Virus record (IMG/VR): IMGVR_UViG_3300028653_000067
Location: 1-20,304 of that record
DNA length: 20,304 nucleotides
Direction: 5' to 3' (one strand)
Source: a virus
Shown: positions 3 through 16,704 of the stretch, in pieces
Numbering within the stretch: the first letter of the stretch is position 1
How the letters are laid out: each line of letters starts with the position of its first letter
The notes under the pieces: generated by a model
Databases searched by the model: none
Told to the model about the DNA's origin: nothing
What the model saw: only the letters and a program-made list of their open reading frames with translations
Position numbers and translations under genes: made by a program

Positions 3-2816
3 CATGGCTGGAGTCGTTTTGGCGATATGGGATTTGCTAATACAGGTTTGGAAGTTCCTGATGTCATGAATATTTCTAGTGCTGTCTTTGACTACGTTGC
101 TTCTGTTAGTGGAGGACTTAAGGAGATTACTGTAGCTTCGGCTGATTCTCCAGATTGGGGTTGGGTTACTTTGCCTATGGAAGAATTCCTGCAAGGTCAA
201 AAAGGAGTAAATAAAGCTATACAACGGATGAGACTACAGGGCTCTATTAAAGCAGCCTATCGTGGTGATGTATCTGGATGGCTCTCTCCTGATAGTAAAT
301 TGCACCCAGTATGGAATACTCATAGTGGATGGGTAGTTGATAATGCTCATGTTTTGAAAGAATATGGTTTAGATGCTAAGGAAATATTTGATTCTTCTGA
401 AGGTTCAATTGAAGCTTTGCTTATGCGTGGATGGGTTAGAGTTAATGGGCACTTACCAACAGAACTTGATTTAGAAGTAGCAGACATAAATAATATCCCC
501 CAAGTAGCAGAACAATTTGTTTGGAAATACAAACCTGAAGTGGTTATTGTGGAAGATTTAAATGGGAATGATGTCTCATTTGATAGGGAAGAATATTCTA
601 AGGGTATGATGAAGAAAGCTGAATTTCTTCCTTCCATGGCTGAGAATGCTCCTACAAATTTATGGCAATTTAATGAAGGAGGCAGTGACGTTGAAATTTG
701 TGAGCAGCCTGACCCAGTATCTGACGAGGAGACATTCTACGCCCCATGTACTGTACAAAAACCACGAGATCCTGATATATATCGCCAATTCCTAAGCATG
801 TTCTCGAAGCCTATTTCTAAGAAGGATGAGATGACAGTTGATAGTGCTTATGATCCAGAGTTTGAAGAGATCGAAAGGAAAGAGTTAGGAGAAGATGAAA
901 CTCTTAATGATTTCTCTAAGGGTATGTATGATCCTAAGAAACACGATTTCCCCCATAATACCACATGGGATGTAGGACCTGAGAAGGCCCCAAATCAGCA
1001 TGAGCCCTATTCCCCATTACCAGTTACTTTGGATATGGTGCAAAATCCTGCAAATAATGACCAAAACTCTCCAGGAGGATTTCCAGGCCGATTCTGTCAG
1101 CCACCGAAATCTGAATGGTTCTCTGACGAAGGAGAAATCGTTCCAGCTTTAAAGAATATGTTTAAGAATAGAGAAGCAGCTATTAATAGTTTAACAAGAG
1201 ATATTATCTCCTCATTAATTGATACAGGTGGTTGGATCTCTCCAAGTGGAAAATATATTGAAACTGATGATCATTATGGATATGTTGATCAGCATATGGA
1301 TGACTTTGGCTTATCTCAATTAAAAACTATGCCTCGATCTTTCGAACGAATTTCTGCTATTATTCGAAGTACTGAGTATATTTTTTCACAAGGCTGGATT
1401 AGAGTAAGAATCTGGGGTGATACAATAATGGTTCAGGGAAATACCTTCCAGAACATTAAAGCTCATGCTGAAGATTTTATTTATAATAATTTGAATAAGA
1501 CAAAAAAGATTCGTATTGAATTGAATGATGAGCAAGCTTATGTATGTACTACAGAAGAATTTAAACAAGATGGTTGGAATGCCTTTTTAAAGAAACCTGT
1601 AATGGCTAAACAAGCAGAGATTATTGAAGTTGGTCTACCTTATGTTGGTGCCCCCCTCCGAGTTATTGTGAATCCTACTTACAATGAAGCAATGGGAGCA
1701 TTTAAAAGAACTGAACATGGCCTTCGATATTTAGTAGATGATGAAGCCAATACATTTATTTGGAATTCTTGGAATGCTACACATACTGAGGTAGCTGGGA
1801 AGTTGGTTGAAAGTGGCTATAAAGTTTCTAATACTGATGTTGCAGGATTTTTAGAAGATGAAAGCTCTGTGGAAGAAATGTTTAGTTTATTGGCTAAGAA
1901 AGCAGGAATTCTTCCCCCACAGCAACCTATTACTGAAAATACAAATGCTGGTACAGCTATTATGATGGATGATGGTTCCATATATTTTAGTGATGAGCCC
2001 TATATGGTTCATGTTAAACTTATCAAGCGATTAGGACTTCCTGTTGAGCATATTGTAAGTGGGGGTCTTATAAAAGATGGCGTTTATTATGATCAGGGAG
2101 TCCAATCAACAGATACTATGAGGTATGTAGAACAGCAAATGGCTCAAAAACGTTGTGATGAGAAAGTTGAGCAATTAAAACGAGTAAGAGAGAAACAGGC
2201 CCAGCATAAGCAAGCAGAGGTTATTGAAATTGGTTTACCTTATGTTGGTGCTCCTCTCAGAGTTATTGTGAATCCTACCTACAATGAAGCATTAGGGGCA
2301 CTTAAAAGAACTGAACATGGTCTTCGATATTTAGAAGACGATGATGGCAATACATTTATTTGGAATTCCTGGAATGCTACACATGAAGAAGTAGCTGGGA
2401 AATTGCGTGAAAGTGGATACCGTGTTTCCAATACTGATTCTGCAGGATTTTTAGACAGTAAAAGCTGTGTGGATTATATGTTTGGTCCATCAGCTAAAAC
2501 AGCAGGTTCCTATAGTTCAACTTATACAGATGAACAAGGTGAACAATTCTTTAATGAGCAGCATCATGATAATGTGGATGAGGAGCCTTATGTAGATCAT
2601 TCGGAACGCGACTACGATGGGGGTTATTGGGATGCAGCTACGAATACAGGGCAAAATACCCCTTGGGCCAAGGATATCACCCCTTCTGTTTGTTTGCTAG
2701 ACCAACTCCAGAATCCAGCGGATAGAAACTATCCACCAGGGATGCCCGATTACTCAATCGTGTTCTATGAAGCTTTACCAGCTAGTGATGGAATTGAGAA
2801 ATCCAACCCAGATTAA
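3..2816 (+). CDS. Large modular phage protein of unknown function, 5' end cut by window
   Basis: I do not recognise a named family. The frame is open from base 3 to the TAA at 2814-2816, and the codons before the first ATG (base 27) read HGWSRFGD with no stop and no ribosome site, so the gene very likely begins upstream. From the ATG it is 929 aa. It has no signal peptide or membrane segment. It is built from repeats. A 100-aa module occurs twice (residues about 529-628 and 729-828), about 79% identical. A looser GW[LI]SP...GW[VI]RV module occurs at about 84-190 and 401-513, with a shorter relative at about 648-690. An LD-x-[VL]QNPA-[ND]...PGG/PGM segment occurs at about 335-355 and again near the C-terminus. 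Linkers such as AKQAE, AKKAG and AKTAG flank the modules. It sits at the upstream edge of the head genes, so an internal-head or virion role is possible but unproven. Confidence 0.8.
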   Translation, partial: HGWSRFGDMGFANTGLEVPDVMNISSAVFDYVASVSGGLKEITVASADSPDWGWVTLPMEEFLQGQKGVNKAIQRMRLQGSIKAAYRGDVSGWLSPDSKLHPVWNTHSGWVVDNAHVLKEYGLDAKEIFDSSEGSIEALLMRGWVRVNGHLPTELDLEVADINNIPQVAEQFVWKYKPEVVIVEDLNGNDVSFDREEYSKGMMKKAEFLPSMAENAPTNLWQFNEGGSDVEICEQPDPVSDEETFYAPCTVQKPRDPDIYRQFLSMFSKPISKKDEMTVDSAYDPEFEEIERKELGEDETLNDFSKGMYDPKKHDFPHNTTWDVGPEKAPNQHEPYSPLPVTLDMVQNPANNDQNSPGGFPGRFCQPPKSEWFSDEGEIVPALKNMFKNREAAINSLTRDIISSLIDTGGWISPSGKYIETDDHYGYVDQHMDDFGLSQLKTMPRSFERISAIIRSTEYIFSQGWIRVRIWGDTIMVQGNTFQNIKAHAEDFIYNNLNKTKKIRIELNDEQAYVCTTEEFKQDGWNAFLKKPVMAKQAEIIEVGLPYVGAPLRVIVNPTYNEAMGAFKRTEHGLRYLVDDEANTFIWNSWNATHTEVAGKLVESGYKVSNTDVAGFLEDESSVEEMFSLLAKKAGILPPQQPITENTNAGTAIMMDDGSIYFSDEPYMVHVKLIKRLGLPVEHIVSGGLIKDGVYYDQGVQSTDTMRYVEQQMAQKRCDEKVEQLKRVREKQAQHKQAEVIEIGLPYVGAPLRVIVNPTYNEALGALKRTEHGLRYLEDDDGNTFIWNSWNATHEEVAGKLRESGYRVSNTDSAGFLDSKSCVDYMFGPSAKTAGSYSSTYTDEQGEQFFNEQHHDNVDEEPYVDHSERDYDGGYWDAATNTGQNTPWAKDITPSVCLLDQLQNPADRNYPPGMPDYSIVFYEALPASDGIEKSNPD
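1611..1910 (+). repeat. Direct repeat copy A (100-codon module)
   Basis: First copy of a coding direct repeat inside the first gene. It starts at the codons for QAEIIEVG and ends at AKKAGI. It lies exactly 600 nt before copy B with no indels between the copies, which keeps both in frame. Shared cores include GLPYVGAPLRVIVNPTYNEA and NTFIWNSWNATH. Confidence 0.9.
2211..2510 (+). repeat. Direct repeat copy B (100-codon module)
   Basis: Second copy of the module at 1611-1910. It starts at QAEVIEIG and ends at AKTAGS. About 21 of 98 aligned residues differ, mostly conservatively in the first half (I/V, M/L, K/R) and more radically in the last 25 residues. This suggests an intragenic duplication under purifying selection. 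Confidence 0.9.
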
Positions 2817-2933
2817 GAGTAGATAAGTTTGTTTAGTAGACAATAAAGTATAATAAAACCGAGTATATATAGAGATACTGCACCCAGTAGCTCAAAATTT
2901 TGCTATCCAGACACTCCTAAAAGGAAATTTCCC
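2817..2933 (+). promoter_or_regulatory. Promoter/leader element, copy 1
   Basis: Gene-free gap before the 460-aa gene. It holds AGTAGATAAGT (2818-2828), a TATAAT box followed by AAA (2849-2857), GTATATATAGAGATACT (2863-2879), a small hairpin ACTG-cacc-CAGT (2877-2888) and TAGCTCA, in that order. The same set with nearly the same spacing recurs at 16132-16207, also before a new run of genes. TATAAT matches a sigma70 -10 box, but I see no TTGACA at the usual distance; the AGTAGATAAGT box, 31 nt upstream start-to-start, may replace it. A ribosome site AAAAGGA near 2919-2925 serves the ATG at 2934. That this is a promoter is inferred from position and recurrence. Confidence 0.65.
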
Positions 2934-4316
2934 ATGACAAATAACAATTTTAATGACTATATTAATGAACTAGTAAAAATCTCAAGTGAGGTGGCACCTA
3001 ACATGACTATAAACGATAAAAATCCTAATGTTGACTCCGAGAAATCAACCCAGGCTAAGATTGAGGAAGCAGTAAACGCCAACCGAGAAGATCAATCAAT
3101 CTCTGCCGCTTTGGATGCCTTTACACTTACAGACGATGGGACACCTTATTTACAGGTCAAACATGCCGCTTTAAATGCCGCTTGTATAGGTAAGGTTGGA
3201 AAGGCAGAATTTGCAACCTCTAAGGACAAGGTAGCCTTGCTTAAAAGCATTGTAAAAGATGCATTTCCACAAACTAAGATCGCTTTTGAAGGTTCCTTTG
3301 TGGAACCAGTTATTGAGAAAATAGCTCGTGGTTGTGATCAATGTGAAGCCACTATGATTAATGGTGTATTTTGTCATGAAACAGGTTGCCCTAATGCTCG
3401 TAAAGTAAAACCATTTGAGGAAGAACCATGGGAAGATATAGAGATGGAAGGTAAGGTTGAACCTAAGCAATCATGGCTTACAGATACTGAATTTGATACA
3501 GAGCTTCCTATGGCTGGTGCAGAATTTATGGAATATGAATGCCCAGTTTGCAAAGAAACTTTTGAAGACTTTGATCTGAATCAGCATGATAAATTGTGCC
3601 CAGGTACTCCTGAAGTGATGCAAGATAAACCAGCAATTTCAATTAAAGAAGATTTGCCAATGGCTCATGCAAGTGATTCTTTGGCTCAAAGTATGCAAGC
3701 GGAGCAGCAAAATATTTCCGCTTCTCAAGAGAAAATTAAAACTGAAGCTGTTAATGCTCTAGTAGCAATGCTTCAGCAGCTTGGGCATGGCTCAGCTAAA
3801 GTAGCAGAAGTTACAGAATCGAAGACAGGTTATGATGTTATGGTAACTGTTGATGCAGATTCTGCTTTAAGGGCTGTAAGTATCCCCGTTGAAGTGAAAG
3901 CATCTAAAGTTGTTCTTCCTAAGAAAGCACTCGTAAGTGAACTTATCAGTAAAGGGCTTGATATTAATGCTAAATTAGCTGAATCCTTTTCACAGGAAGT
4001 GCTGGTTAAGATGGCCGAAGCAGATGAGAAGTCTGCTTTTGAGAAAGCTGAAGCGGAAGCTATTATCAACGAGAAAGTTGCAAGTTTAGATAAAACCGCT
4101 GGAGACGAACCGAAAACCCAGTTCGAGGGAACTAATGAAACCGTTTTTATGAACAAGCATTTGATTCCAGATGGGTTAGATTTAGAGATTTCAGATGTTG
4201 TACATATCGACGGGGTTTCGTATCGTTTAGTCTCTAAGTCCAAAGACCAGCTTAGTCGTGGAGATGGGGATGCATCGACTTGGATCTTTGAAAAAGTTAC
4301 TCCTGTTGTAAAGTAA
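2934..4316 (+). CDS. Zinc-finger phage protein, 460 aa, unknown function
   Basis: The start has a good AAAAGGA ribosome site and follows the promoter/leader. Two metal-binding clusters are visible: C134-x2-C137...C147-x4-C152, around the core NGVFCHETGCPN, and C203-x2-C206...H218-x3-C222, a C2HC finger. From memory the first resembles a cysteine motif seen in other phage hypothetical proteins, but no function is known to me. The N-terminal 130 residues are mostly helical. Residues about 260-390 are rich in A, E and K and probably coiled coil. The last 60 residues (about 400-455) look like a small beta domain. The segments ELPMAGAE (190-197) and DLPMAHAS (240-247) resemble the interdomain linkers of the 1511-aa protein downstream. 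It may be a virion-internal or assembly protein, by context only. Confidence 0.8.
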   Translation: MTNNNFNDYINELVKISSEVAPNMTINDKNPNVDSEKSTQAKIEEAVNANREDQSISAALDAFTLTDDGTPYLQVKHAALNAACIGKVGKAEFATSKDKVALLKSIVKDAFPQTKIAFEGSFVEPVIEKIARGCDQCEATMINGVFCHETGCPNARKVKPFEEEPWEDIEMEGKVEPKQSWLTDTEFDTELPMAGAEFMEYECPVCKETFEDFDLNQHDKLCPGTPEVMQDKPAISIKEDLPMAHASDSLAQSMQAEQQNISASQEKIKTEAVNALVAMLQQLGHGSAKVAEVTESKTGYDVMVTVDADSALRAVSIPVEVKASKVVLPKKALVSELISKGLDINAKLAESFSQEVLVKMAEADEKSAFEKAEAEAIINEKVASLDKTAGDEPKTQFEGTNETVFMNKHLIPDGLDLEISDVVHIDGVSYRLVSKSKDQLSRGDGDASTWIFEKVTPVVK

Positions 4317-4339: not shown

Positions 4340-5227
4340 ATGAGTAAGAGAAGGCATAGTTGGAACTTTAAAGACTTAACTGGTTATACTTATGGGCGAT
4401 TAACAGTTACAGATTTTTCTCATTTTAATAATAAGCATAAATCATTTTGGAAAGTTAAATGTTCTTGTGGAAATGCAACAATTGTTGAAGCAAGTAAGCT
4501 AAAAAGTAGTCATACGAGATCCTGTGGTTGCCTTAATTTAGAGCATGTAAAAACACATGGTATGTCTCAGACTCGTATTTATGGTATTTGGCATCAAATG
4601 AAAGTAAGAACTTTCTTGCAACCTAATAGCCCATTGTATAGAATTTATGGTGGACGTAATATAACGTTATATCCTAAATGGGTTGATTTTGAAGAATTCT
4701 ATAAAGATATGGGTGAAAGTTATAATAAACATGTAGAAGAATTTGGAGAAGATAATACTTCTATTGATCGTTGGCCCAATGTAGATGGTAATTATGAACC
4801 AGGAAATGTAAGATGGGCAACGAATAAAGAGCAAAGTAGAAATCGACGGATAATGCCTGAAACAGAGGATTATGATGAACATTTAAAATGGAGAAGGAGA
4901 TTAACTGATATTGTAAATTCTTCTTTGAGATATCACGTTAAAAATTCCCCACTTTTTGAACATTATGTTAGATGTACCCCAAATGAATTTAGAGATTATA
5001 TAACTTCTTTATTTGAATCTTGGATGACTTGGGATAATAAAGGAGTTTTAAGAAAGAATAGTAAGAAAATAGTATGGCATTTAGATCATATTAAGCCTTG
5101 TCATGATTTTGATTTATCTAAAGAAGAAGATCGTTTAGTTTGTTTTAATTTTAGGAATTTTCGACCAAAAGAAGCTCTTAAGAATATTACAGATGGGAAT
5201 AATCCAAATTACTTTGCTAAAGTTTAG
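4340..5227 (+). CDS. Free-standing HNH homing-type endonuclease with two nuclease modules
   Basis: Predicted site-specific DNA endonuclease of the HNH group, 295 aa. The N-terminal part (about 15-170) has a C41-x-C43...C62-x-C64 zinc knuckle, the pattern YGGRNITLYPKWVDFEEF, and SIDRWPNVDG...NVRWAT..EQSRNRR, a degenerate HNH-like core usual in phage homing enzymes. The C-terminal part (about 185-290) is a second HNH module: MTWDN, then WHLDHIKP with catalytic-type H247, D249 and H250, then FRNFRP with N273 and a final N282. It looks like a fusion of two common endonuclease types. The gene lies alone between two structural-type genes in the same direction, 23 nt after one and 9 nt before the next, and is visibly more AT-rich than they are. 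Both facts fit later insertion. The ribosome site is AAAAGG. Confidence 0.88.
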   Translation: MSKRRHSWNFKDLTGYTYGRLTVTDFSHFNNKHKSFWKVKCSCGNATIVEASKLKSSHTRSCGCLNLEHVKTHGMSQTRIYGIWHQMKVRTFLQPNSPLYRIYGGRNITLYPKWVDFEEFYKDMGESYNKHVEEFGEDNTSIDRWPNVDGNYEPGNVRWATNKEQSRNRRIMPETEDYDEHLKWRRRLTDIVNSSLRYHVKNSPLFEHYVRCTPNEFRDYITSLFESWMTWDNKGVLRKNSKKIVWHLDHIKPCHDFDLSKEEDRLVCFNFRNFRPKEALKNITDGNNPNYFAKV

Positions 5228-5236
5228 GAGACACAA

Positions 5237-8200
5237 ATGAAATTTTTCGATGAAATTATTAAACCCCTATTTAAAACAGCAGATGAATCTACTTCAACTC
5301 ATTCTTCTTTTCGTATAGCGGATTCAACAGCTGTAGGTGATAACCCAGTCAGAGAACTATCTTTGGATGTAGTGGCCATTAGCCCAGAATCGGCTATTGT
5401 GACTCTCGCTTGGAAAGACTCTGCAGAAAAAATTCTCGAAAAGAAAACTTCTCCCGAAGAAGCCTCACATTTGAGTCAGCTCCTCGCAACAGACCTTGCA
5501 CAGTTGGTAAAGCTTACTGATGAAAATAAATACGACGAGGCTAAAGAAGTTCTTAATAGTATGTTGAAAGAATACTCTCAAGATTCCTCCACCCCCATTG
5601 AAACAAATCTCCCTAAATTAAATACGACCCAAGCAGAAAAAGATATTGATGAAGGATTATGGAAGGCAGCAGGGCAGGTGAAATTACAAAATATTTTCCC
5701 CTCTGGCACTGTGCAGAATTTAGTTTTTGAAAGCCAAGAAGACTTGGCCGCTTATCAAGGAAAGCAAAAAGGAACTGGAAAGGAAGTTCCTTTATGGGAG
5801 CAAGAGGGAAAAGGCAAATCCCCTGAGTCACGAGACCAACTTAGTCCTGCTTCACTTTCCTATGAAGATGTCGAAAATCAGAAAGAAGAAGAGCATGAAA
5901 ATATGAAAGATCATATTGATGAAACCATTAAGAAAGAGCTAGAGAGCGCATTACAGGAAAAGGCTGCTTCTGTATTTGGTCCTGAGCAAGTTGAGCTTGT
6001 TAAAGTGCTTAGGAAGAATGGACGCAATTGGGATGAAATCACCAAAATGCTCACAAAAGACTTCCATTATGATAAAGATGCTACCACAATATTTGTGGAT
6101 CAACAGAGACAGGCAGCAGGAGATGAAGGTATCGAAATTAAGAAAGAAGAACCTTCTCCTTTGAAGCCACCTGAGAATCTAGTTTCGCCTGAAACGCATG
6201 ACAAATTGCTTGAGGATCTTAAGAAGGATAAAGAGCCAGTTGAAGAAGTTAAAGAGATTGAGAAAGTTGATGAGTCTCCTATCGTCGAGGAATCAGCTTT
6301 GGATGAAAAATGTCCTTCTTGTGGACATACGAAACCTGTTAAAGGAGAATGTCCATCTTGTAAGAGATGTGATTGTGAGCAGGGTCATGTGGAATCAGCT
6401 AAGAAATCTGTTTGCCCTGAATGTAATGGTGAGGGAGATGTTCCAGCCGTTCGTGGTGGTCATGTGGTAGCTATTTCTTGTCCTTCTTGTTCTGGAGATA
6501 AACATATTGAACATGCACCTAAAGAGATCGAATCAGCTATTGAAGAAATTTCTAGGGCTGATAATGCAGATATTAGAAAAGTAGCTGGTGATCCAGAAGT
6601 TAAAACATGTCCTGATTGTGAGACACCCAATCAATTTGGGGAAGTTTGTCATAAATGCCAGCAAGAACGAGAAGAGAATCCAGAAAGATATGCTTCATTA
6701 GTTAGAGCTAAAGTAGCTTCTTACATGAGAATCCCCGAAACAGATTCTATTGTAAAGGTAGCATTAGAACTTTGGAAATATCCATCCAATTATATGGGTG
6801 ATGATTTGAGTGATTATTATAAAGGCCCAGCTAAGGGATATGATGCTGATGCTTTAGATAAGTCTAATTTTAAAGTTGCTTTGGAAATGCTTGGTGGAGA
6901 AGGCAACGGAGTACTAGTAGGTAGCTTTGGTGGATTTGGTGGTGGGCATGAGCAGATCTTTGTCCATAAAGATGCCGCTGACAAAGTAGCTATTCTCCAG
7001 GATATTGAAAATAAGATGTCAGAGTATCCAGTTTTGGATGATAGTGACTATTCTGAGGCACAGATGGAAGAAGAACAGGAAAGTTATGATTCTTGGGCTA
7101 AGGGTGATGCACTAAAAATTATTGACCAAGAACTTCATAGGCAGAATCCTGATTTACAAAACTCTGTAACGGAATTAGAACTTTCTCCAGAATTAGAAAA
7201 TAAATTGAGAATGGTTGTATTGGATGGTCTTACTTATGGGGATGGGTCAGCTCTTGGAGATAAACATCTAATTGAAGAAGCAGATAGAGAAGGACTTTTA
7301 AATGACTTTAGAAATGCCTTAAGTGGAACGGAAGTTGTTCCTGAAGATCCAGCTCAGATGAAGCTTTTTGAGTCTTCTTTACGAAGCAAGTTAGTAAAGA
7401 ATGCTCTAAAGAAACGAGCTGCAGATAATCCTTTACAGGAACCTATTTCTGAAGAGCCCACAATGGAAACTCCTAAACAGGATATTGTTCCATTTGGTCA
7501 GGCTCAGCATAGGGCTCCTAAACCAGAATCTTGGGTAGTAGTCCAGTCAGATCTAAAAAGTGAACTACCAGCATTTAGAGCTAAATTTGTTAGTGAGGAA
7601 ACTGAGAGTGATGGTACAAAATGGGGTATTGTAGATAAAGATGGTGAACTACTAAAAGTAGAGATGCATCGTATTACTCCTGAAACGGAAGGTGCCCAAA
7701 CATCTGATCCAATTGCTGAACCTCAAATTGAGAAGCCTCAAGAAGCTGATATTCCAGTAACTCCTAAAATGGATGATTTCCATACCAGTTCCTTGAAACA
7801 AGCTGATGAAGCTTCTGATGAACTTAGATTTGAACGAGCAGTAGATATGCTTGATAAGAAACTGATGAGAGGAGATATTCATCAAGAGGAATATGATGCT
7901 GCATATGAAGCATTAAAGAAGCAAATGTTTCCTAATGAGATCGATCCTAATAAGCATTTATATGCTGCTAAATGTTCTGATACATCTGGAACTGAACATG
8001 CTGGACCTGTAGTTAAACATCAGCATGGTACTGATTCTACTATGTATTGTGACAAGCATTTGCCAAGTCATATTAAATATAATACACCAGAACCTAAAGA
8101 ATCTTCCCAAGATGACCTACTCTCTATTAAAGCTGAAGTAGAAGAGCTATTAAAAAAAGTAGCTGCCTTAGAAGTTGAGGGATCTGAAACCTTCACTTGC

Positions 8201-10566: not shown

Positions 10567-12213
10567 ATGTCTCGATTTTACGGAATGATTTCCCAAGAGT
10601 TGTCAGCACAAATAACCGATATTAATCAAGCAGCCATTAATCCCAGTTATTGGAGCTTGGTTAATCTCGGTATTGATTTGTATAACAACCAAATTGAGAT
10701 CCTAGATGCCGTCCTTGACTTGAGTTTGCCCTATGTAGCCATACTTGCCAGCCGTGGTTCTGGTAAGACATATAGTGTTGCCATTGCTCTTGTTAAAGCT
10801 TGCCTTGATAATCCAGGTTTCCGTGTTGGTGTATTCGGTCCTAAAATGGAAACCTCCAAACGTTTATTGAAAGAAGATATTATCGGGCGTATTCTCACCC
10901 CTTCCTCTAAAATCCACGATTTAATTAATTGGGAACGTACCTCGAATTCATTTGTTCAATTCAAAAACGGATCGTCAATAAAAGCACTTTCTGCAAGTGT
11001 TACGGCAACAACAGAATCTGAGCACTTCAATTTCTTGGTATTGGATGAGGCGCATAAGATCTCAGATTGGGTCCTTCGTGAGCGTATCGTACCAATGGCT
11101 TCACTTGGTATTTCTAAGACAATAAAGATTGGAATTTCTCTTTACAAGAATAACTTCTGGCACAGTTGCCAGGATAATGGGACAAAGTATAAACTTTTAA
11201 GAAAATCATGGGAAGAGTGTGATATTTATTGGCTGCAGGGTTCGATCCGTTATGAGGGAAAGGATTACCCTAAACGTATTGTGGACTTGATGCCCAAGAG
11301 TGTTAAAGAGGAACTTTTTCCTAATGATCCTGCTTTACATTATGATTCGGTAGAAGGATATTCTGAAATTGAGTGGAATACTCAATACGCTATGAAATGG
11401 ATGGAGGATATTAACCTCGTCCTATCAGGTGAGCAACAACAGAAACTAGCTTCTGGACTTTTCAGCATCCTTGAGAAAGGCCGTCCTGAAATGACCGAGA
11501 AGTATTATTTTGGGTTGGATACAGCCTCTGGAACATTAATGCCAGGGCAGAAAGATTTGGACTGGACTGTGTTAACAATTCTTAGGAAGAATGGTGATAA
11601 CACAAAAGATATAGTAGCTAAGTATATGTGGCAGGGTGATGTCGTAGCTCAGATGCAGGAGATTAGGGACATCATTCATCCTACAGAGGGCTTGTTTCAT
11701 TGTGTTATGGGCCTTGCCGATTATTCAAATATTGCAATTGGTATTGTAGAGCTGTTCAAGAAAGAGGGTATTCCTATAGCTGGGGTTACTTTTGGGGCAT
11801 CTGAGCCAATTACCAAGAAGAATTATAAAAACGCTATGTTTGATCAATTCGTTTTTGAACTTGACAGTGGGAGAGTATTTTACCCTAACATTGAAAAAAT
11901 TAAGAAGAATAAAACTTTTAAAGAAGGATTTGACCAATGGGGTCTTGTTGAGAGACATCGTAGTAGTGCAGGTATAAATGATAAAATCTTTGTAGATCCT
12001 TCTTCTGGTCATGATGATCATTGCAGTGCTGACGTACTTGCTGTATGGGCTGCAGACCAAGAAAAATCCTATGCAGGTAAAGTCCCACAAACGTTAAAGA
12101 ATATCACTATGGGTATAGCTGGGCCAGTCAATATAAGCGGATCTTCAGTTCCCTTACCTGGACAAAATGGTGATCCTTCAGCTGGAAAATTCCTTAAGGA
12201 CCGTTTAACATAA
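10567..12213 (+). CDS. terL: Large terminase subunit (DNA-packaging ATPase/nuclease)
   Basis: Motor protein that pumps DNA into the prohead through the portal and cuts the concatemer. It is 548 aa, a normal length. The N-terminal ATPase has Walker A ASRGSGKT (61-68) and Walker B NFLVLDEAH (155-163), in which the glutamate after the aspartate is the usual catalytic base. The C-terminal RNase H-like nuclease shows FGLDTASG (D318), LADYSN (D385) and HDDHCSAD (D483/D484/D489), candidates for the metal-binding acidic residues. ATG 10567 follows AAAGGA. The portal gene lies 0.5 kb downstream, the usual order. No small terminase subunit can be recognised; one of the short helical genes nearby could fill that role, but nothing in their sequence shows it. 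Confidence 0.95.
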   Translation: MSRFYGMISQELSAQITDINQAAINPSYWSLVNLGIDLYNNQIEILDAVLDLSLPYVAILASRGSGKTYSVAIALVKACLDNPGFRVGVFGPKMETSKRLLKEDIIGRILTPSSKIHDLINWERTSNSFVQFKNGSSIKALSASVTATTESEHFNFLVLDEAHKISDWVLRERIVPMASLGISKTIKIGISLYKNNFWHSCQDNGTKYKLLRKSWEECDIYWLQGSIRYEGKDYPKRIVDLMPKSVKEELFPNDPALHYDSVEGYSEIEWNTQYAMKWMEDINLVLSGEQQQKLASGLFSILEKGRPEMTEKYYFGLDTASGTLMPGQKDLDWTVLTILRKNGDNTKDIVAKYMWQGDVVAQMQEIRDIIHPTEGLFHCVMGLADYSNIAIGIVELFKKEGIPIAGVTFGASEPITKKNYKNAMFDQFVFELDSGRVFYPNIEKIKKNKTFKEGFDQWGLVERHRSSAGINDKIFVDPSSGHDDHCSADVLAVWAADQEKSYAGKVPQTLKNITMGIAGPVNISGSSVPLPGQNGDPSAGKFLKDRLT

Positions 12214-12490: not shown

Positions 12491-12698
12491 CGAAGCTCAC
12501 AAATATCTTCTCTATATAGCAGATGCTCTATGGAACGTTGGATCTGGTTTTCATATAGATAAACAGGATAAAGGAATATTGGAAAAGTGTGCCAATGATT
12601 TAGCTGAGTATGCTAAGGTAGTTGATCAGGTAAAGAATAGGATGAGAGCAAAAGAGCAAATGAGAAAGGAAGAGATAGAAGAAGAGGATAAGAAGTAA
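12468..12698 (+). CDS. Small helical charged protein, 76 aa
   Basis: Begins inside the end of the zinc-knuckle gene (23-nt overlap), so it is probably translated by coupling. The product is predicted helical and ends in a very charged stretch (KEQMRKEEIEEEDKK). No cysteine cluster except C47, no membrane segment, no family recognised. It ends 11 nt before the portal start. Size and position would allow a small terminase subunit or portal helper, but nothing specific supports that. Confidence 0.65.
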   Translation: MKPIPTLDEAHKYLLYIADALWNVGSGFHIDKQDKGILEKCANDLAEYAKVVDQVKNRMRAKEQMRKEEIEEEDKK

Positions 12699-12709
12699 AG
12701 GAGAATAGT

Positions 12710-12929
12710 ATGGCTAGACCTCGTGGTAGTAAAAATAAAGTTACCAAATCGGGCACTCTTTCACCTGAAGGATTTCATGGTGGGATTCAGGACCCGAATT
12801 CTGGGGCTAATGCCTTTTCTATTGGCATGAATAAAACTGCATCATTGGAAAAAACTGGAGAATATTCTGTTACACAAACACAGTCATTCTTCTACTCACC
12901 TGAGCTTAACATAATGGGCTCCTTATCCT
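12710..12929 (+). CDS. Portal protein, exon 1 (73 codons plus 1 nt)
   Basis: ATG 12710 has an AGGAG site 8 nt upstream. The exon encodes a basic N-terminus (MARPRGSKNK) and the segment SFFYSPELNIMGSLS. Read without splicing, it stops at TAA 12929-12931, giving a 73-aa stub. The stop is created by the exon-intron border. Joining T12929 to A13156 makes TAT (Tyr) and continues SLS-Y-SWVLPKSRQ into exon 2. The spliced product is 577 aa. Confidence 0.75.
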
Positions 12930-13155
12930 AAAGGGATAATGAAAAACTTGGCCGTATCGGTGAAACTCCTACTCAATAGAGAGGACAATACCGAGGAAAG
13001 ACTGGAAAGAAGTTTTCCAGAATCCGTAACGACTAAACGCCAAGCTCCTTGTAAAAGGATGAAGTTATAGTCTGAACTCCATAGAAATATGGAGAGTTAA
13101 TCAGAAATGATTAGCCGCCTCGAAAGAGGTTTAAAAGCAACATAGTGCACATCAG
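12930..13155 (+). ncRNA. Group I self-splicing intron in the portal gene
   Basis: 226 nt with no ORF. The core helices can be traced. P1: TTATCCT 12923-12929 with GGGATAA 12933-12939, giving the required U-G pair at the 5' site. P3: CTTGGC 12947-12952 with GCCAAG 13039-13044. P4: TCGGT 12957-12961 with ACCGA 12990-12994. P6-type hairpin: CTGGAAA 13002-13008 with TTTCCAG 13014-13020. P7: GACTA 13031-13035 with TAGTC 13068-13072. P8: TCCTT 13046-13050 with AAGGA 13055-13059. Then come three hairpins with GAAA loops: 13077-13094, 13099-13112 and 13118-13129. The 3' site is set at G13155, the only G near the end that keeps the frame and avoids the in-frame TAG at 13143-13145. P5 and P10 are not clear. 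The exact 3' border is less certain than the core. Confidence 0.88.
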
Positions 13156-14669
13156 ATAGCTGGGTTCTTCCAAAAAGCAGACAAGAGATCCTTAAGTGGA
13201 TTCGTATTTTCTTTAATCTAGAACCTTATATTCAGCAGATCACAATGATGCATTCATTGTACCCATTTTCTAAATTTGATTTAGTTGTTGCTGATCCTAC
13301 TGTTAAGAAATTCTATGAAGAGATGTCTTCTAATGGAGATTTCAATCTCTTTGAATTTATTCTTCAAGCCTCTTTATCAAGAGAAAAATTTGGTGAGGCA
13401 ATTCCCTTTGGTAACTTGACCCAAGATGAAACTGCAAATAAAGCAGGGAAGAAATTATTTCGATGGCATAATTTTATTTTGTTAGAGCCAGAACTTGTTG
13501 AAATTAAGACAGACATGCTATCAGGTAAGAAAACGTTTGAAATGGTTCCAACTGAAGAAATTAAAGCACTTGTTTCTTCAACACGTCCTGAAGATCAAGA
13601 GAGAGTGGAAGAGCTTAAGAAAACTTCTCCTGAGCTTGTTAATGCCGTTTTGGAGCATAGAAATATTAAACTTGAGGAAGAATGTGTTTCTCAAATTGCT
13701 CGTATTACAGACCCCTCTGCTACTCGTGGCACATCTCGAATTCAATCTTGCTTCAAGGCATTAATTCTTCAAGATTGGATTCGTCTTGCACAATCTGCAT
13801 ATGCAAAAAATTATGTATTCCCCAAAGAACTATGGACGATTGGTGATTTGGCAAGTAACACAATGCCTTCACAAAATGATCTACAAAATTGGAGACAATT
13901 AATTAACCAGTCCATTCAAAGTCCTCCATTTACAATTATTGCACCTCCTATTGTGCATTATGAGCCTCTATCAGTTATGGGTAAGCAGTTCCCTCTAAAT
14001 GCTGAGTATGACTACATTCAAGATCAGCTTTTAGTTGGATTGGGTGTTAACAAGAATATTATTTTAGGAGAAGGTCCAAACTTTGGTAATAGTAAGACAA
14101 TGGCATTGCAAGCTCTTGTTATGCAATATAAAGCTGTGCGTGATAAATTTGAAGACTGGATGATTAATAAGTATTTTAGACCTATTGCTGAGAAAAATGA
14201 ATTCTATACAGTTGATCCTGATACTGGTGAGAAGCAGCTTATTTTGCCTCAGATCTCTTGGTATAAATCTTTGGATATTGATGCTCAGGAAAGAGAGCAG
14301 GAACAGTTTGCTGAATTCCATAAAGAGGGCCTTATTTCAACTAAGACGCTATTTAGTAAGTATCCTAACTTGGATTATGAGACTGAACGTAAGCAGTTGG
14401 AAGAGGAACGTGGGACGATATTTGATAAGGGTTCCAAGGATAGTCGCTTACCAGCTCAGATCTCTAGACCTAGCGGAGAAGGTATGGGTGGTGGGGGAGG
14501 AGATATGGGTGGTGGCCCAGTAGAGCCAATTGAGCCTATAGAGCCCACAGAGCCTGGAGAAGAGCTTCCAGGGGTAGAAGGTACTCCAGAGGCTGCTACA
14601 GAAGGCACTACGGATGTCGGAGAGCCTAATGTAGGTGGAGCTTCAGATTTAGGGATGCCAGAAGTATGA
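13156..14669 (+). CDS. Portal protein, exon 2
   Basis: Twelve-subunit ring protein at the capsid vertex through which terminase moves DNA. Exon 2 gives residues 74-577 of the spliced 577-aa product. The frame is open back past ATG 13245 through SWVLPKSRQEILKWIRIFF, so 13245 is only the first ATG of the open frame and not the gene start. Portal-like features are the N-terminal arm ending in LEPYIQ...LYPFSKF, a helical middle, and the late LGEGPNFGNSKTMALQAL...QYKAVRDKFEDW region typical of long-helix portal proteins. The C-terminus (about 60 residues) is a low-complexity G/P/E tail with a GGGGG run and an EPIEPIEPTEP stretch. The stop TGA overlaps the next ATG (ATGA). Confidence 0.85.
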
Positions 14670-15019
14670 GTATAGAAATTCATCCTAGTAATTTAGCTCA
14701 ATGGAATGGGGTTACTTCTGCAACTTCTGCAACTACTAATACTGGTGGTAATGTATTAGGTGGTGTATTGTATCCTGGATCTTATACAATTGGTACTGGA
14801 GGCTTAAGTAACACTACAACCACTTATAATCCAATACAAGTAACAGTTGACATTAAACGATGTAGAAATTGCAATCATGCCCACTTAGCTGAGCAACCAG
14901 GATGTATTGATCAAGAAGGTTGGAATACTGTATTTGTAATATGTAAATGCAAAGAATACCTGCCTAAAGACAATTTAGAGTATTTAGAATACCTAGCCAA
15001 GAAAAAAGAATCGCACTAA
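14666..15019 (+). CDS. Zinc-knuckle protein B with low-complexity N-terminus, 117 aa
   Basis: Its ATG overlaps the portal stop (ATGA), so translation is coupled to portal. Residues 1-60 are rich in T, G, S and N without charge. The C-terminal half carries CRNCNHAHL...C...CKCKEYLPKDNLEYLEY. That last segment is nearly the same as CKCKEFLPKDNLEFLEY in the protein at 16495, so the two are paralogues. The cysteine and histidine layout suggests one or two zinc sites. Function unknown. The link to portal suggests a head or connector accessory role, by inference only. Confidence 0.8.
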   Translation: MSIEIHPSNLAQWNGVTSATSATTNTGGNVLGGVLYPGSYTIGTGGLSNTTTTYNPIQVTVDIKRCRNCNHAHLAEQPGCIDQEGWNTVFVICKCKEYLPKDNLEYLEYLAKKKESH

Positions 15020-15042: not shown

Positions 15043-15690
15043 ATGAAAAAAATAATGGTTTCCCTTCTATCCGTTCTGCTCGTTTTACCTGCCTGTGCAA
15101 TAAATATTTCAAAGAAAATGGAGCCTTCTACAGTTTTAATTAAAATGAAAATACATAGAGATGAAGGCAATAAAACGGGGTGGGGATCATGTAGTGGAGT
15201 ATATATTAAAAAGAATATTATTCTTTCTGCAGCTCATTGTGTTGCATTTCCTGCAGATGAGGGGATACAATTAAAAGAGATTTGGATAAAGAAAGGGGAT
15301 GAGTCTGAAAGAGCGATAGTTGTCAAAGTAGATGCCCAAGCTGATTTATTGCTTCTTTATACTCCTTTGTCAGGTAAACCAGTTAAATTTGCTCATAAAG
15401 TGGAACGAGGTGAGGATTGCTGGGTTATTGGAAATCCATTAGGGCTTGTAGATATTTTGACGAAAGGGATTGTGAGTCAGATGAATTTGAAACATAAAAG
15501 TGAAAAAGCTACATTCATTGTGGTAGACGCGACAGCTCTTCCAGGCAACTCAGGTGGTGCAGTTGTGGATCGTAGAGGGCATTTGATCGGAATTTTAACT
15601 AGATCTACCTCGTTATTTGGATCTTTTGGAGCAGCTGGACTTGGATTGGCTGTAGATTTGGGAACAATTAGAGAATTTTTAAAGTCATAA
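15043..15690 (+). CDS. Exported trypsin-like (HtrA/S1-type) serine protease
   Basis: 215 aa. The first 19 residues are a Sec signal peptide (MKKIMVSLLSVLLVLPACA). Cleavage may follow ACA, or LPAC may act as a poor lipobox with C18. The chymotrypsin-fold triad is clear: H65 in LSAAHC, D101 in QADLLLL, S170 in LPGNSGGAVV, with the oxyanion glycine. IGNPLG (129-134) is typical of the DegP/HtrA branch, but there is no PDZ domain. The predicted site of action is the host periplasm, envelope or outside, not the prohead, so it is unlikely to be the capsid maturation enzyme. It has its own AAAAGGA site 23 nt after the previous gene. It looks like a cargo (moron-type) gene between head genes. Confidence 0.9.
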   Translation: MKKIMVSLLSVLLVLPACAINISKKMEPSTVLIKMKIHRDEGNKTGWGSCSGVYIKKNIILSAAHCVAFPADEGIQLKEIWIKKGDESERAIVVKVDAQADLLLLYTPLSGKPVKFAHKVERGEDCWVIGNPLGLVDILTKGIVSQMNLKHKSEKATFIVVDATALPGNSGGAVVDRRGHLIGILTRSTSLFGSFGAAGLGLAVDLGTIREFLKS

Positions 15691-16247: not shown

Positions 16248-16493
16248 ATGGTTTATAGCAATGATGAAAGACATGAGAAGAAAGAATTAAATTATTTAAC
16301 AGAGGAAGGTCTGAGCGTTTCTGTTTTGTTCGAAGCGGTCATGGTAAAAATGATGGGGAAGACCCTGGATCTTATTAGGATTTCAGATATTTCAGATCGC
16401 CAAATGACGCAGTTGGCCCGTACAATTAAAGATGATTGCTATGAGAAGATCAAGTTTGCTAAAGCAATTTTGAAAGATCATAACATTGAATAA
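16248..16493 (+). CDS. Small helical protein, first gene after second leader, 81 aa
   Basis: 81 aa, strong AGGAG site, directly after the second promoter/leader. Predicted mostly helical, with MVYSNDERHEKKEL at the start and a long amphipathic helix at the end (ARTIKDDCYEKIKFAKAIL). No cysteine cluster, signal peptide or membrane segment. No family recognised. It is first in a run of genes ending with the minor head and prohead protease genes. Confidence 0.75.
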   Translation: MVYSNDERHEKKELNYLTEEGLSVSVLFEAVMVKMMGKTLDLIRISDISDRQMTQLARTIKDDCYEKIKFAKAILKDHNIE

Positions 16494-16494
16494 G

Positions 16495-16704
16495 ATGCCA
16501 ATTAGGAAGATTAAAAATCCAAAATCTTTTGATCTTTGTAGAACCTGTGATCATTACTATTTGAGTCATACCGATATAGGTCATGAACCAAGTTTTTGCC
16601 ATAATATTACAAGAAGTTGTAAGTGTAAAGAATTTTTACCAAAGGATAATTTAGAATTTTTGGAATATAAACATGGACAATTGGATAAAAAATTTAGCAA
16701 TTAA
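16495..16704 (+). CDS. Zinc-knuckle mini-protein C, 69 aa
   Basis: Paralogue of the C-terminal half of the 14666 protein. It reads LCRTCDHYYLSH...H...C...CKCKEFLPKDNLEFLEY. I chose ATG 16495, one base after the previous stop, over an in-frame TTG at 16486 that would overlap that gene; neither has a strong ribosome site. The layout C-x2-C-x-H...H...C...C-x-C suggests a single zinc knuckle. It overlaps the next gene by 32 nt. Confidence 0.78.
   Translation: MPIRKIKNPKSFDLCRTCDHYYLSHTDIGHEPSFCHNITRSCKCKEFLPKDNLEFLEYKHGQLDKKFSN

Follow-up and report, generated by a model that had tools for sequence, protein, structure and literature searches.

Short group I introns are common in the essential genes of large phages (PMC12363816, PMC7886860). 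In the Jug (jumbo gut) phages they average about 206 nt and interrupt essential genes including terL; splicing is supported by metatranscriptomes for 37 of 76 introns, and inteins occur in the same genomes (PMC12363816). The Delta and Zeta groups of crAss-like phages combine TerL inteins with group I introns in MCP and other core genes (PMC7886860). In the mycobacteriophages BAKA and Optimus, a tail gene contains a 265-bp intron without an ORF, the splicing of which was shown by RT-PCR, and the capsid gene of LittleE is interrupted by an 819-bp intron bearing an endonuclease (PMC3706429). In T4-like phages, free-standing endonucleases that act in trans can move ORF-less introns (PMC2988022, PMC3984707), and a tract of co-converted exon sequence is a pattern known from the homing of td (PMC2988022). 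Our literature search, which was partial and is no proof of absence, found no portal gene for which a group I intron had been reported before. The element described here is thus of a known kind, in a host gene apparently unreported for it.

The window, by which we mean the whole stretch of 20,304 nt that was analysed (IMG/VR record IMGVR_UViG_3300028653_000067), belongs to a tailed phage that is known only from a metagenome contig. All features of the window given below lie on its plus strand. We read positions 12907..13147 as a 241-nt ORF-less group I intron in the portal gene, which would be spliced under the direction of its internal guide and would have moved by DNA-level recombination, and we assign this reading, drawn from sequence comparison, a probability of about 95%. 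The Rfam model Intron_gpI (RF00028) matches positions 12897-13094 with 65.1 bits (cmscan, E 9.7e-15), above its gathering score of 50, and the match spans model positions 1-253. This is the sole Rfam match in the whole 20,304-base virus record, with no second group I match. The fold of the intron is much more stable than that of its dinucleotide shuffles (z -5.84), none of 200 shuffles being equally good. These results bear out the central claim of the initial annotation, made from the letters alone, that an ORF-less group I intron lies inside the portal gene and that its removal joins the ORF at 12710 to the portal frame. No ORF of at least 60 codons is found inside 12907-13147, so the intron does not carry the endonuclease of its own by which a mobile group I intron is recognized.

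The insertion point follows the second base of portal codon 66 (CU|CA). The 5' exon of 197 nt (12710..12906) encodes the first 65 residues and contributes two bases to codon 66, and it aligns with intron-less portals; the 3' exon (13148..14669) supplies the third base of that codon and continues to the stop that follows residue 572. Unspliced, the reading frame from 12710 stops after 73 codons; joined, it encodes a portal protein of 572 residues (577 had been predicted) that matches PHROG portal families with E 2e-31, while Pfam has no family for it. The large terminase gene (10567..12213) lies upstream. A Shine-Dalgarno-like AAGGAG at 12698..12703 precedes the start, which supports translation from ATG 12710 over ATG 13245. 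Automatic gene finding would call the latter and so truncate the portal by 98 residues, not the 103 counted initially (197 nt of 5' exon and 97 nt of 3' exon precede that ATG), and portal-based surveys of this clade would misread the gene.

Most portal relatives from IMG/VR show 79-94% identity, and almost all lack an interruption. About 16 intron-less loci run through the site with the invariant sequence SPELTSDSWVLPKSRQEILKW, which excision at 12906/13147 restores exactly. Only two of about 30 portal records covering the site carry the intron, and no portal relatives were found in bacterial and archaeal genomes.

The other carrier, L015, has its intron at the same site; it is 84% identical to that of the window and by itself scores 60.8 bits on Intron_gpI. 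A third homologue was found in another gene, the probable major capsid gene of a related 180-kb record (180,416 bases, the record that also contains L020). This gene (L056 1227-200, minus strand) has two group I introns, and the second of them, of 1028 nt, has the ends AACU|UAACACAAUGGGUUCC ... GUAAUAGACAG|CA, matching those of the portal introns. When it is taken out, the joined exons give NRTQERAKASIM, exactly the sequence found in intron-less relatives. The host gene is called a capsid gene from its position in the structural region, without a family match, and the identity is therefore given as probable. An ORF of 289 codons (DUF7487) is located in the P6 region of this intron. When IMG/VR was searched with a core pattern and a 5'-end pattern, no further copies were found beyond the contig of L015; a match in L024 was rejected as a chance match in an unrelated region. 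Comparison of the intron with 50,697 phage records gave short core matches only, of about 65 nt at best. It should be mentioned that one relative with an intron-less portal shows a sub-threshold group I match (25.3 bits; L057, G009 3676-3820) next to the capsid gene.

How the intron came to its present place is suggested by the exon that follows it. Identity between the window and the closest intron-less allele, that of the sister L021, is 93-94% immediately before the site and 99% at +53 to +156. Over 46 nt at the start of the 3' exon (13148..13193) there are 18 differences between the two, whereas the next 83 nt contain none; elsewhere, 33 differences are spread over 531 nt (Fisher p 2.5e-9). 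All the differences in the tract are silent. Six of the tract variants are common only to the window and L015 and occur in no intron-less allele. The tract looks like the product of co-conversion during DNA-level movement of the intron, although ordinary recombination between co-infecting phages would give such a tract too. The intron would have entered the portal allele of the window (or left that of its sister) by recombination at the level of DNA, and the same event would have exchanged about 46 nt of the downstream exon. Without an endonuclease gene of its own, it may move with the help of an endonuclease acting in trans or by recombination during co-infection.

The exchange may also have run the other way: the insertion would be old and common to the window, L021, and L015, and L021 would have lost its intron through recombination with an intron-less allele, which also replaced the initial 46 nt of the 3' exon in L021. 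In favour of such a loss, the comparison of the tracts is symmetric, and the tract of L021 resembles those of other intron-less alleles. Against it stand the six variants shared by the two carriers and absent from every intron-less allele. Since carriers are rare, it is also simpler to suppose that the window lineage gained the intron. We consider the loss in L021, including the overwriting of its exon, unlikely without being far-fetched, and prefer a gain by the window lineage. Whichever lineage changed, the carrier, its intron-less sister, the carrier with both an intron and an intein, and the ORF-bearing homologue in the capsid gene form a set of alleles in which the movement of the intron between phages is naturally recorded.

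A candidate for a partner in trans is encoded elsewhere in the window. A free-standing HNH endonuclease gene at 4340..5227 matches PHROG 374 (E 7e-51) and has no family in Pfam or NCBIfam. A homologue, 40% identical, lies in the same place in the record of L015, between the same two flanking genes. The gene is present at that locus in both carriers and in none of the five intron-less relatives whose contigs cover it. Judging from this pattern, the HNH protein might act in trans as the homing endonuclease of the portal intron: it would cut intron-less portal alleles at the site or just downstream of it, and repair would copy in the intron together with about 46 nt of the 3' exon. The one-sided, downstream tract is in keeping with such collaborative homing, and phages have been described in which free-standing endonucleases bring about the homing of ORF-less introns in trans (PMC3984707). 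On the other hand, the HNH proteins of the two carriers share only 40% identity, and the two carriers are related at the HNH locus, where their flanking proteins are 68-71% identical compared with 37-50% for the others, so that shared ancestry explains the pattern equally well. With just two carriers, and these closer kin at this locus, we take the co-occurrence as a lead only; both the cutting by this HNH protein and the copying that would follow from it seem to us improbable. The intron and the HNH gene nevertheless provide a concrete pair in which trans homing can be considered.

The portal gene of this clade has been interrupted repeatedly. L015 carries, in addition to its intron, an intein 52 nt downstream, at residue 83/84 (4848-6100). 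Insertions at residue 83/84 are also present in other records (L020 3159-4411; L045 and L051 about 2743-3998; L047 2752-4001), and they are inteins wherever they were read. In L015 and L020, these inteins apparently begin with Pro and end with Asn ahead of a Cys, which is unusual for inteins. Further portal inteins are found near residue 265 and near residue 379 (L020 about 4959-6001; L043 and L044 5080-6161; L047 about 4972-5975; L050 4654-5102 and 5461-6569); of those near residue 265, one has an HNH domain and one is short. Introns were considered for the interruptions at residues 83/84, about 265, and about 379, and were rejected in favour of inteins because Rfam finds nothing in the portal insertions of L015 and L020 and the frames are open in those examined. 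Between the end of the tract in the window and the 83/84 intein site lie about 6 nt, a proximity that may be a coincidence. It is a doubtful speculation, drawn from these arrangements, that the portal intron and the unlinked but syntenic HNH gene could be a trans-homing pair of an uncultivated phage clade in which an intron and an intein have invaded one short stretch of the portal gene.

Several other features of the neighbourhood were observed. At L015 826-2542, about 1.7 kb of additional sequence breaks the large terminase gene at residue 155-158 and ends in an intein-like C-terminus. An AP2/HNH endonuclease gene directly follows the portal gene in L015 (7563-8039), L016, and L022, and is absent from that position in the window. 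In the structural region of the window, positions 15043-15690 encode a trypsin-like serine protease whose N-terminus has a signal-like stretch (Pfam Trypsin_2, E 4e-21). Two paralogous small Cys/His-rich proteins (14666-15019 and 16486-16704; 45% identical over 44 residues) are repeated downstream of the portal gene, and most relatives have homologues of them.

The secondary structure of the intron bears on both its class and its borders. P1 is formed by the exon end GAGCU (12902-12906) and the internal guide GGCUC (12917-12921), as given by the Rfam alignment and the homologue in the capsid gene, with the U12906-G12917 pair at the 5' splice site. P2 (12923-12929/12933-12939) follows as a helix of its own, a separation also seen in the homologue in the capsid gene, which forms P1 and P2 as distinct hairpins and whose P2 reads AAUCUC-GAAA-GAGAUU. 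The Rfam alignment also gives P3 (12947-12952/13039-13044), with four compensatory pairs among the three introns, and P4 (12957-12961/12990-12994; seen in the three-intron comparison as well). P4 encloses P5 (UCCU...AGGA, 12967-12970/12982-12985, with an inner helix at 12972-12974/12979-12981); this helix, at 12967-12985, had been left unpaired in the initial annotation. Comparison of the three introns yields P6 (12995-12997/13023-13025) and P6a (13002-13008/13014-13020). P7, the expected guanosine site (GACUA, 13031-13035; UAGUC, 13068-13072), and P8, which it encloses (13046-13050/13055-13059), are again from Rfam. P9 (13077-13094), P9.1 (13097-13114), and P9.2 (13118-13129) each have a GAAA loop in the window, and all three hairpins show compensatory changes among the three introns. 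The loops, for which the initial annotation suggested tertiary docking contacts, vary in the relatives: in L015, P9 has GAGA and P9.2 has GUAA, while in the capsid-gene intron P9 has GUAA and P9.2 has CUCA. With helices assigned by hand and P5 left out of the count, double compensatory changes occur in 19 of the 59 pairs of the window, L015, and capsid-gene introns, and 166 of 167 cells are paired; P7, identical in all three, is uninformative here. There is no room for P7.1/P7.2 between P7 and P3, which argues against subgroup IA, and the absence of P5abc argues against subgroups IC1 and IC2.

The borders were sought by enumerating all in-frame splice pairs near both ends and filtering them for a U at the end of the 5' exon and a G at the end of the intron. 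A single pair restores the sequence of the family in each carrier: 12906/13147 among 40 in the window, and 4551/4796 among 103 in L015. The 5' exon ends in U and the intron in G (G13147) in the window, and likewise in the copies of L015 and the capsid gene. Moving both ends by +1 or +2 gives an identical protein, so that only the terminal-G rule fixes the choice to the single base. Only the splice at 12907-13147 rebuilds SPELTSDSWVLP, which is invariant in intron-less relatives.

The initial annotation had instead placed the intron at 12930-13155 (226 nt), with UUAUCCU/GGGAUAA (12923-12939) as P1 and with NIMGSLSY replacing TSD in the protein. In both carriers this splice preserves an open reading frame; it also has a U at the exon end and a G at the intron end, and it offers a plausible P9.0 (UGA/UCA). 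It is, however, very improbable. The Rfam alignment puts P1 upstream, and the hairpin in question corresponds to P2 of the capsid-gene intron, whose ends match the borders at 12907-13147. The product would be SPELNIMGSLSYSWVLP, not the invariant sequence, whereas TSD is present in all intron-less relatives and no related portal gene carries the 226 nt as coding sequence. Bases 13149-13157, most of which these borders would assign to the intron, encode TSD, and since only silent changes separate the carriers there (ACA TCA GAT in the window, ACT TCG GAT in L015), these bases belong to the exon. The weakest point of our model is the pairing at P10 and P9.0: by inspection, P10 has two pairs at most, CA/UG (C13148-G12916 and A13149-U12915), and no clear P9.0 is seen, the better-looking P9.0 favouring the 3' site that leads to a non-conserved protein.

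With the borders at 12907-13147, the guide GGCUC would pair with the exon end GAGCU in the transcript, the first cut would be made after the U of the U-G pair with a guanosine bound at P7, and the second after the terminal G, joining CU to CA and restoring the 572-residue portal. We infer from these features that the intron splices itself in the infected cell. That the interruption is an artefact or a pseudogene, with the portal broken by a stop or two contigs misjoined, is barely credible even for a metagenome assembly, given that an independent record has this intron at the identical site, and given the compensatory changes and the intact protein on both sides; an assembly chimera around 12907-13193 is likewise unlikely.

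Among described systems, the introns of BAKA and Optimus are similar in several respects: each is a small intron free of an endonuclease in a gene for a virion structural protein, with a U at the exon end and a G at the intron end, and was recognized by comparison with intron-less alleles. With LittleE included, copies with and without an endonuclease occur in different structural genes within one phage cluster, as they do here. The differences, compared by description only, are that those phages belong to another group and that a tail gene is interrupted rather than a portal gene. The type of their intron is unclear, although most likely group I (PMC3706429), whereas the Rfam match and the covariation place the present one in group I. 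The Jug phages average 18.5 introns per genome, whereas few were found in the clade studied here; this comparison, too, is by description only. The mixed load of introns and inteins recalls the crAss-like phages, whose introns were identified mainly through endonuclease domains, unlike the portal intron, which has none. Finally, the co-conversion of flanking exon during DNA-level homing is a likeness to the T4 td intron; td carries its own endonuclease, while for the portal intron, which has none, a partner in trans is a candidate.
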